From: Pseudobdellovibrionaceae bacterium
Lineage (GTDB): Bacteria; Bdellovibrionota; Bdellovibrionia; Bdellovibrionales; Bdellovibrionaceae
Reading direction: 5' to 3'
Length of the DNA: 64,000 bases
NCBI GenBank assembly: GCA_019637915.1
Contig: JAHBUV010000001.1
Location: 124,001-188,000 of the forward strand
Positions 33,046 to 62,573 of this stretch are shown here, piece by piece. The notes under the pieces were generated by a model that saw only the letters and a program-made list of their open reading frames with translations, ran no database searches and had not been told where the DNA came from. The translations under genes were made by a program, and so were the position numbers. Each line of letters begins with the position of its first letter. Position 1 is the stretch's first letter.

Positions 33046-33599
33046 AGCCCCCGATCCGCACGCGAAGATGGGCCGTGTTCATCTCCGGACGCGGATCGAA
33101 CCTGCAGGCCCTGCTCGATCAACTGATCGACGTCGACATCCGCTGGGTCTTGAGCTCGAAGGCCTCGGCGCCGGGTTTGCTGCGGGCCCGCCGTCAGGGG
33201 ATCGCCGCCACGGTGCTACCGAAAAAAATCGATTGGGCGGAGCTCGACCGCGAGCTGCGCCGCCGCGGCATCGAGGCGATCTTCCTGGCGGGCTTCATGA
33301 AAATCATCCCGGAGGATTTCGTGCGGGCCTGGGCGGGGCGGATGTTGAACGTGCATCCCAGTCTTTTGCCGCAGTATCCGGGTTTGAACGCGTTGGAAAA
33401 ATCCTATGATGACAATGCCCCCATGGGCGTCACCGTGCACGTGGTGACGCCCGAAATGGATGCCGGTCCCCAGGTGTTTCAGCGGCGCGCTTTGCCCGCT
33501 GGCGCCAAGGCGGCGGGCGTTTCCGCCCGCGAGGCGCAGGTGCGCATCTCGCGGGCGGAACAACGTTTGGTCAGAGAGGCGGTTCGCAAATGGAGATGA
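33042..33599 (+). CDS. purN: Phosphoribosylglycinamide formyltransferase
   Basis: 185 residues. It transfers formyl from 10-formyl-THF to GAR. SGRGSNLQAL binds phosphate; LAGFMKIIP, NVHPSLLPQYPG and VHVVTPEMDAGP hold the catalytic Asn/His/Asp residues. The start overlaps the purM stop by four bases. No purD precedes it, so GAR must be made by an enzyme encoded elsewhere. Confidence 0.96.
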   Translation: MKPPIRTRRWAVFISGRGSNLQALLDQLIDVDIRWVLSSKASAPGLLRARRQGIAATVLPKKIDWAELDRELRRRGIEAIFLAGFMKIIPEDFVRAWAGRMLNVHPSLLPQYPGLNALEKSYDDNAPMGVTVHVVTPEMDAGPQVFQRRALPAGAKAAGVSAREAQVRISRAEQRLVREAVRKWR

Positions 33600-57703: not shown

Positions 57704-58147
57704 ATGAGTCTGTTGCAAGACAGGGCCACGGCCCTCACCCGGAAATTTCAATCCCTGTCCGACTGGGAAGCGCGTTACAAGTTGCTCATTGAGTGGGGCC
57801 GCGAACTGCCGGCTTTTCCCGAGGAACTGCGCACCGAAGAGAACAAAGTGCGCGGCTGCCAGTCGCAGGTGTGGTTGCACGCCTCCCTGGATGAGGAGGG
57901 TCGGATGTGGTTGCGCGCCGACAGCGATGCCCTGATCGTCAAAGGACTCATCGCCACGCTTTTGCAGGTTTACTCCGGGGTAACGCCTGGCGACATCCTG
58001 CAGTTTCCGCCCGAATTCCTGAAAACATTGGGCTTCGAGGGCCACCTTTCTCCCTCGAGAGCGAACGGTTTGCACGCCATGCTTAAACAAATTCGCCACT
58101 ATGCCGTGGCCTTTGACTATTTGTGGAAATCGAAAAAAACGCATTGA
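57704..58147 (+). CDS. sufE: SufE-family sulfur acceptor
   Basis: 147 residues. SufE takes persulfide sulfur from a cysteine desulfurase and hands it to cluster assembly. The acceptor Cys is in NKVRGCQSQVWL near residue 52, and SGVTPGDIL and the LSPSRANGLHAML end are typical. No sufS or sufBCD is adjacent; the only desulfurase in the window is at 22 kb. Confidence 0.93.
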   Translation: MSLLQDRATALTRKFQSLSDWEARYKLLIEWGRELPAFPEELRTEENKVRGCQSQVWLHASLDEEGRMWLRADSDALIVKGLIATLLQVYSGVTPGDILQFPPEFLKTLGFEGHLSPSRANGLHAMLKQIRHYAVAFDYLWKSKKTH

Positions 58148-58167
58148 CCCCCGTCATTGGTCCAGGA

Positions 58168-58219
58168 TTGAATTTTTGAACAAGGACGTGGAGGGGAAGC
58201 CCGTTCTTCAAAAATTCAA
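58168..58219 (+). repeat. 13-bp perfect inverted repeat before the protease gene
   Basis: TTGAATTTTTGAA (58168-58180) and TTCAAAAATTCAA (58207-58219) with a 26-base loop. Each arm is itself a direct repeat of a 5-mer (TTGAA or TTCAA). The right arm ends one base before the ribosome site of the protease gene. Confidence 0.7.
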
Positions 58220-58230
58220 GAGGGGGAAAA

Positions 58231-59097
58231 ATGGCACGGATGTTCATTTTGTCTTTCGTGGTTGTCTTCGGATCAGCCGCGAGCGCGTTCACGTATCAGC
58301 CCAACGTCATCTATGGAAAAGACGACCGGATTGATCTCTACATGATCGAGAATCCCATCGTCCGCGAAGTGGCCCTGTCCACGGCGGCGATGATCCCGTC
58401 GGCGAATCTTTCGCAGGCCGAGGAAGGCAAGCAATCGGTCCGCGCCGGCATTTACGGCCATGAGATGGGCCTGTGTTCGGAAGAGGCTTTTTACAGCCAA
58501 CCGAGCGGCGCCATGTGCTCCGGCTTCCTGGTCGGCGATGATCTGCTGGCCACCGCCGGGCATTGCATCACCGAGAGCAGCTGCGAGAGCAACAGCTTCG
58601 TTTTCAACTACCACATGACCAACGCCGAAACGGCGCCCACGGTGGTGGCTCAATCCGACGTCTACCGCTGCACCCAGGTGCTGTCGCGGGAACTCACCAA
58701 CAACCAGGACTACGCCCTGGTGAAGTTGGACCGCCCGGTGGAAGGCCGCCGCGCCCTGCGCCTGGCCGCCAACCCCGTGCAGTTGAACGACGGCATCTAC
58801 GTGGTGGGCCACCCGTCCGGCCTGCCGACGAAGGTCGCCGGCGGCGCCAGCATCCGTCGTCTGGAGACCGGCTACTTCGTGGCGAATCTCGACACCTATG
58901 GCGGCAACTCCGGCTCGGCCGTGTTCAACACCGAGACCAACGAAGTCATCGGCATCCTGGTGCGCGGCGAGCGGGATTTCCGCTACGACAGCAGCAACAT
59001 GTGCAAGCGCAGCAACAGCTGCCTGGACAGCGAGTGCCGGGGCGAGGACGTCACCCTCATCTCGTACATCATCGATGCGTTGAACCAGAAACATTGA
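58231..59097 (+). CDS. Secreted trypsin-like serine protease (S1)
   Basis: 288 residues with AGAGGGGG before the ATG. Signal peptide MARMFILSFVVVFGSAASA. The catalytic triad is complete: His in LLATAGHCIT, Asp in QDYALVKLD, Ser in YGGNSGSAVF. Several cysteines (LCSEE, MCSGF, SSCES, RCTQ, a C-terminal trio) suggest disulfides. A roughly 50-residue segment between signal and protease domain may be a propeptide. Substrate specificity is not evident. Confidence 0.92.
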   Translation: MARMFILSFVVVFGSAASAFTYQPNVIYGKDDRIDLYMIENPIVREVALSTAAMIPSANLSQAEEGKQSVRAGIYGHEMGLCSEEAFYSQPSGAMCSGFLVGDDLLATAGHCITESSCESNSFVFNYHMTNAETAPTVVAQSDVYRCTQVLSRELTNNQDYALVKLDRPVEGRRALRLAANPVQLNDGIYVVGHPSGLPTKVAGGASIRRLETGYFVANLDTYGGNSGSAVFNTETNEVIGILVRGERDFRYDSSNMCKRSNSCLDSECRGEDVTLISYIIDALNQKH

Positions 59098-59165: not shown

Positions 59166-59225
59166 AAAGAACCGGGAGACCGGCCTGCCCGTGAGCGGGG
59201 AGATCGGTCTCCCGGTTCTTTTTTT
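59166..59225. terminator. Second large terminator hairpin between protease and yebC
   Basis: 17-bp perfect stem, left arm 59166-59182 (AAAGAACCGGGAGACCG), right arm 59205-59221, enclosing a small CCCG/CGGG hairpin, and followed by seven T. The yebC stop codon lies in the terminal T-run. It acts mainly rightward as a back-up stop; leftward it lacks a long U-tract. Confidence 0.75.
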
Positions 59226-62482: not shown

Positions 62483-62537
62483 AGGTGCCAGGTCCTGAAT
62501 GGTGGAGCGGCGCTCCACCATTCAGGACCTGGCACCT
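62483..62537. repeat. 26-bp perfect palindrome (REP-like)
   Basis: Arms 62483-62508 and 62512-62537 pair perfectly around a 3-base loop GGC. The tip reads GGTGGAGC / GCTCCACC and the base AGGTGCCAGGTCC / GGACCTGGCACCT. It is the strongest inverted repeat in the window and appears only once here. It resembles dispersed REP/BIME elements. Confidence 0.85.
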
Positions 62538-62540
62538 AAG

Positions 62541-62573
62541 AAAAAGGCGGCTGGGAATACCAGCCGCCTTTTT
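62541..62573. terminator. Bidirectional intrinsic terminator
   Basis: AAAAAGGCGGCTGG / CCAGCCGCCTTTTT 14-bp stem with a 5-base loop. A- and T-runs flank both sides, so it can end the leftward gene at 62599 as well as rightward transcripts. Confidence 0.85.

Follow-up and report, generated by a model that had tools for sequence, protein, structure and literature searches.

The DNA analysed here is a stretch of 64,000 nt, referred to as the window. Among its genes is one encoding an exported trypsin-like protease, which is preceded by sufE (Table 1). The start of the protease resembles a signal peptide when judged by eye, and in an alignment of 11 sequences the residues H111, D160 and S227 are invariant, in the contexts TAGHC, QDY and GNSGSA. 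Two orthologous protease frames, L029 (G030:C4:18097-18948) and L060 (G068:C42:5740-6537), contain one in-frame TAG each and are possibly pseudogenes or errors.

Table 1. Features of the protease locus, with positions in the window
Feature	Position	Strand	Remarks
sufE, conserved neighbour upstream of the orthologue	57704..58147	+	83 nt from its stop codon to the protease start
5' arm, TTGAATTTTTGAA	58168..58180	+	half of the inverted repeat
Candidate CsrA/RsmE-type site, ACAAGGACGT	58180..58189	+	exact match to WCANGGANGW; GGA1 at 58184-58186
Two more GGA motifs (58190-58192, 58195-58197)	58190..58197	+	the latter (GGA3) in the predicted apical loop AGGGGAAG
3' arm, TTCAAAAATTCAA	58207..58219	+	exact complement of the 5' arm; stops one base 5' of AGGGGG
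Ribosome-binding site AGGGGGA	58221..58227	+	GGA at 58225-58227, putative CsrA contact
Exported trypsin-like protease, 288 aa	58231..59097	+	Pfam: Trypsin_2 1e-19, Trypsin 1.8e-12
Terminator-like 17-bp perfect inverted repeat, protease/yebC gap	59166..59221	+	from the repeat and terminator scans

An earlier sequence-only reading of this DNA had noted a perfect 13-bp inverted repeat, with arms 26 bases apart, just before AGGGGG, and the coordinates confirm it. The repeat sits in the 83-nt gap between the sufE stop codon and the protease start, and its second arm is followed by a G at 58220, AGGGGG at 58221-58226 and the ATG at 58231. About 0.125 perfect repeats (arm of at least 13 bp, gap of 3-40) are expected per 64 kb in a first-order Markov sequence with the composition of the window, and five were observed (33521-33560, 58168-58219, 59166-59221, 62483-62537 and 62541-62573), the third and the fifth being terminator-like and the fourth a dispersed palindrome. 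The repeats of the window are above chance, although a perfect repeat is in itself nothing unusual there. When folded as plus-strand RNA, positions 58160-58230 gave -23.5 kcal/mol (z -3.16, equalled by none of 200 shuffles), and the z value fell to only -0.37 for the longer stretch 58120-58260 because the folding signal is local. The hairpin, with its long A/T-rich stem and 26-nt spacer, was formed by the plus-strand RNA in all four stretches folded. An Rfam scan matched tRNA alone.

The spacer also contains a candidate binding motif which was absent from the sequence-only reading. According to the available parts of a SELEX study (PMC7652899), CsrA selects the consensus RUACARGGAUGU, with the GGA in hairpin loops and an ANGGAN hexaloop. 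ACAAGGACGT agrees with this consensus and its ANGGA core, and WCANGGANGW is also found in the leaders L018, L019, L020 and L056, that is, together with the window, in 5 of 25 orthologue leaders. RNAfold predicts GGA1 to be paired within the window hairpin (unpaired probability 0.01), and freeing it would cost about 2.9 kcal/mol; GGA3 is exposed in the prediction but is not an ANGGA. GGA1 and GGA3 are 41 nt and 30 nt away, respectively, from the ribosome-site GGA. The genome of the window encodes CsrA (PF02599, 9.1e-26), in which L4 and R44, RNA-contact residues named in the portions of PMC7652899 at hand, are present, and fliW is located directly downstream of csrA. CsrA was moreover found in 58 of 59 relatives.

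The protease orthologue was sought in 66 genomes of the Bdellovibrionaceae. Of the loci read, 26 have sufE upstream. Readable leaders numbered 25; L026, whose leader contains an N, and L060, which is at a contig end, were left out. A strict rule, fixed after examples had been seen, asked for a stem of at least 5 bp with at most one G-U pair and a 5-6-nt loop containing GGA, the ribosome site being excluded. Sixteen of the 25 sufE-linked orthologue leaders satisfied it, against 0.92 expected from dinucleotide shuffles; in one of the sixteen, L030, the hairpin is away from the ribosome site. Leaders of neighbouring genes gave 4 matches in 59 (sufE 3/26, an upstream 266-aa protein 1/20, yebC 0/13), and among the leaders fetched after the idea had been formed (L052-L059 and L061-L063) 8 of 11 matched, ten of these eleven being from a single genus. 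A hairpin scan that did not ask for GGA gave 17 of 25 against 5.81 expected, which is a weaker result than with GGA, and GGA is in the loop of 14 of the 17 leaders having a hairpin near the ribosome site.

Hairpins read by eye immediately upstream of the ribosome site, with GGA in the loop, include UCUC-ACGGAA-GAGA in L018, UUUUUC-AAGGAU-GAAAAA in L020, CUUUU-ACGGAU-GAAAG in L027, which belongs to the genus of the window, CUCAA-AAGGAU-UUGAG in L031 and AUGUUC-AGGAU-GAACAU in another genus (g6). ANGGAN hexaloops are present in L018, L019, L020, L027, L031 and L056. Other loops are without GGA, namely AUGAU in L021, L022, L023 and L029, AAGAG in L052 and AUGAA in L028. The GGA is unpaired in a loop in 16 of the 25 orthologue leaders; the window leader, with GGA1 predicted to be paired and GGA3 exposed, fails the rule of a 5-6-nt loop. 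As modelled, the element of the window departs most from the type among the orthologue leaders, with its long stem, its 26-nt spacer and the predicted pairing of GGA1. No hairpin of the strict type was found in L062 (genome G060) among the 25 leaders scanned; there the ribosome site is inside an 8-bp stem (CGTTCTCC/GGAGAACG), unlike in the other orthologues.

Covariation was examined in an ungapped alignment of 14 leaders of genus g6 (11 distinct), from which L062 was omitted for having no alignable hairpin. Both sides had changed in five of the eight pairs and 94.3% of the cells were paired; any of the measures was reached by none of 500 shuffles, and the pairing was lost when the partner was slid by 1-3 columns. 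The loop GGA and the ribosome-site GGA are 17 nt apart in the nine g6 leaders with a GGA loop and also in L020. The predicted hairpin structure is kept beside the ribosome site in most orthologues while its letters change. The sequence-only reading had held that a lack of conservation upstream of orthologous proteases would speak against a function of the repeat, and this turned out to be half the case: the sequence is not conserved, but a hairpin with a GGA loop is kept in most orthologues. Mapped onto the protein tree, the presence of a GGA loop shows no significant clustering (it needs 6 changes, and 55 of 500 shuffles need no more), and therefore losses or gains have been repeated. This may reflect either a repeated loss of CsrA control or an extra role for the hairpin.

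The background in the same genome was taken from 464 kb (20 stretches and the window) with 359 predicted genes, 260 of which have a ribosome site. The strict rule was satisfied by 4 of these 260 leaders, and only two strict hairpins were at most 10 nt from the ribosome site, both belonging to flagellins. WCANGGANGW was likewise found in 4 of the 260, including one flagellin and the protease of the window. Flagellin is the classic target of CsrA-FliW control. In the flagellin leaders of this genome and its relatives (30 of the 66 matches found) the strict rule was satisfied by 12, against 0.92 expected. Within the genome of the window, the leaders of the flagellins (L178 3552 and 4975) resemble that of the protease in having a GGA-loop hairpin or WCANGGANGW before the ribosome site, and differ in the stem, which is richer in G+C and has a compact loop in the flagellins whereas that of the protease is A/T-rich with a long spacer.

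More distant homologues were retrieved with an alignment query. Three of 66 matched the strict rule where 1.31 would be expected. L083, which is among these three, is the locus of L025, and the paralogues L085, L086 and L088 gave no match. In leaders of the Bacteriovoracaceae type a GGA-loop hairpin is placed at the ribosome site itself in 11 of 15, against 0.57 expected, under a rule that was fixed after the motif had been seen (at least 4 bp, ribosome site included). This Bacteriovoracaceae/Halobacteriovorax set includes L145, titled Proteobacteria and placed by its leader, without which the count is 10 of 14; L100, which has no leader, was omitted. The form is often GGAA-AAGGAU-UUCC around the ribosome site. 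In L112, L116-L118, L121, L122, L137, L143, L145 and L153 the ribosome site is in the loop of GGAA-AAGGA[U/A]-UUCC before the start codon. GGAAAAGGATTTCC is present in 10 of 12 genomes of this type, as a single copy in each except for one genome with two, and the copy in G099 is not at the protease leader L115. CsrA was found in 11 of the 12, G099 being the exception. In the Elusimicrobia homologues only 1 of 22 leaders has the hairpin (22 of 26 titled rows were used; L104, L111, L138 and L148 were left out as their starts are unsure), and CsrA was not found in any of the 14 Elusimicrobia genomes searched.

The hairpin with a GGA loop that recurs in the orthologue leaders has the architecture of published CsrA/RsmA sites. 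In the available parts of PMC4894983 the Campylobacter jejuni flaA leader has two GGA hairpin loops with an optimal distance of 18 nt, and mutations of the loop GGA, including GGA to UGA, weaken CsrA binding and abolish regulation. The protease leaders are similar to flaA, as far as these parts describe it, in the hairpin-loop GGA beside the ribosome site and in the compensatory changes, and csrA and fliW are both present in C. jejuni as in the genome of the window. The spacing of the sites is 21 nt in flaA and 17 nt in the g6 leaders, and the 17 nt of g6 and L020 is close to the flaA optimum (PMC4894983). UGA, a mutant form of the flaA loop, occurs in some Bdellovibrio leaders and is natural to the loops of L021-L023 and L029. 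Unlike flaA, the gene here encodes an exported protease, in Bdellovibrionaceae, and the window hairpin has a greater length and a spacer of 26 nt. The Escherichia coli glgC model of a hairpin site plus the ribosome site (excerpts of PMC7652899) and the RsmE/RsmN complexes (excerpts of PMC3791407) also resemble the orthologue leaders, with a loop GGA and a ribosome-site GGA. According to the excerpts of PMC3791407, the consensus has the form ANGGAN, as in the hexaloops of the six leaders, and RsmN binds an AAGGAU loop and also a 5-nt loop. These published cases differ from the present one in that the window GGA is predicted to be paired and CsrA binding to the leaders is here a prediction.

We consider it probable (roughly 0.7) that the protease leader is a CsrA target, with the repeat forming the stem of a hairpin in this 5' leader RNA. 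The sequence-only reading had offered two options, a hairpin in the RNA through which translation of the protease is controlled, or a DNA operator bound by a dimer; the analysis supports the first and not the second. The action of CsrA on the protease would likely be translational repression, and the ribosome-site GGA at 58225-58227 is likely the second contact of the CsrA dimer. One face of the dimer would hold the GGA of the hairpin loop and the other that of the ribosome site; bridging the two sites in this way, it would prevent the 30S subunit from binding, and translation of the protease would be repressed. On export of flagellin, FliW would take up CsrA and the repression would be relieved, so that FliW and flagellin, by setting the level of free CsrA, could tie protease synthesis to the flagellar state. 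We infer that CsrA binds, that it acts as a repressor and not as an activator, and that FliW is linked to this control. Control of free CsrA by FliW and flagellin has reportedly been described for Bacillus subtilis. The same is described for C. jejuni in the available parts of PMC4894983.

The leader hairpin could also be conserved independently of CsrA, holding the ribosome site open, stabilising the mRNA or stopping read-through from sufE, with the loop GGA being incidental. The persistence of the stem in the leaders whose loops have no GGA (L021-L023, L029, L052 and L028) agrees with this, as does the window stem, which is longer than in typical CsrA sites (mostly at most 4 contiguous pairs in the SELEX hairpins, in the parts of PMC7652899 available). 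We nevertheless regard it as unlikely in view of the frequency of GGA in the loops near the ribosome site, the signature shared with flagellins, and the Elusimicrobia homologues, which are without the signature in genomes that, where searched, are without CsrA. It is even less probable that the repeat is due to chance and functionless in this genome, the element of the relatives having decayed there. The window leader is indeed without the compact GGA loop of its relatives and carries one of five such repeats in the window, but its position coincides exactly with the hairpin of the relatives and it carries the exact 10-nt consensus, which is rare among the sampled leaders.

An operator for a dimeric transcription factor, with TTGAA-N3-TTGAA in each arm, would account for the perfect symmetry and for the repetition of TTGAA inside the arms. 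However, the paired motif occurs once in the 3.32-Mb genome with no second inverted pair, and 11 of the 14 other single-arm matches (at most one mismatch) are inside open frames of at least 150 codons. Moreover the repeat is directly at the ribosome site and the changes in relatives preserve RNA pairing. As a candidate that neither recurs at other promoters nor is conserved in its arm sequence upstream of orthologues, the operator was rejected and is very improbable. An RNA thermometer, for which an easily melting A/T-rich stem would be suited and at which the earlier proposal of RNA probing at different temperatures had hinted, or a terminator/attenuator can practically be set aside, since the arms exclude the ribosome site, whose weaker pairing elsewhere depends on which stretch is folded, and since no T-run follows the repeat, the terminator scan has no entry there and the intrinsic terminator (G+C stem with T-run) was rejected.

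Returning to the CsrA reading, a wider proposal can be made tentatively, with more doubt than confidence. Throughout predatory Bdellovibrionota a CsrA-FliW circuit may tie the production of an exported trypsin-like protease to the assembly of flagella, through a hairpin whose sequence turns over and which would adjoin the ribosome site in Bdellovibrionaceae and overlap it in Bacteriovoracaceae; a change of GGA to UGA may have disarmed the hairpin in the HD100-like lineage, so that the switch would be present in some natural strains and absent from others. If true, this would name a non-flagellar CsrA target in predatory bacteria and link motility to an exported protease, and natural loop variants would be available. 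To our knowledge post-transcriptional control in predatory bacteria has been little described. In the titles and abstracts of literature listings no paper was found with CsrA or carbon storage regulator for Bdellovibrio, and the available parts of two B. bacteriovorus proteome/transcriptome papers (PMC12546842, PMC2797640) have no mention of CsrA. As read here, the protease leader is a new case of a known type of control, in a lineage for which the listings hold no CsrA-target paper.

Elsewhere in the window, 62483-62537 forms a perfect palindrome of 55 bp, each arm being 27 bp long. The end of this palindrome, AGGTGCCAGGTCC, has 50 copies in the genome (at most one mismatch) against 8 for the reversed control, and many of the copies are plus/minus pairs 42 nt apart. 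Copies are located on both sides of a Y1_Tnp-family match (G000:C1:670867-671058), which suggests that the palindrome is a REP/RAYT-like element.
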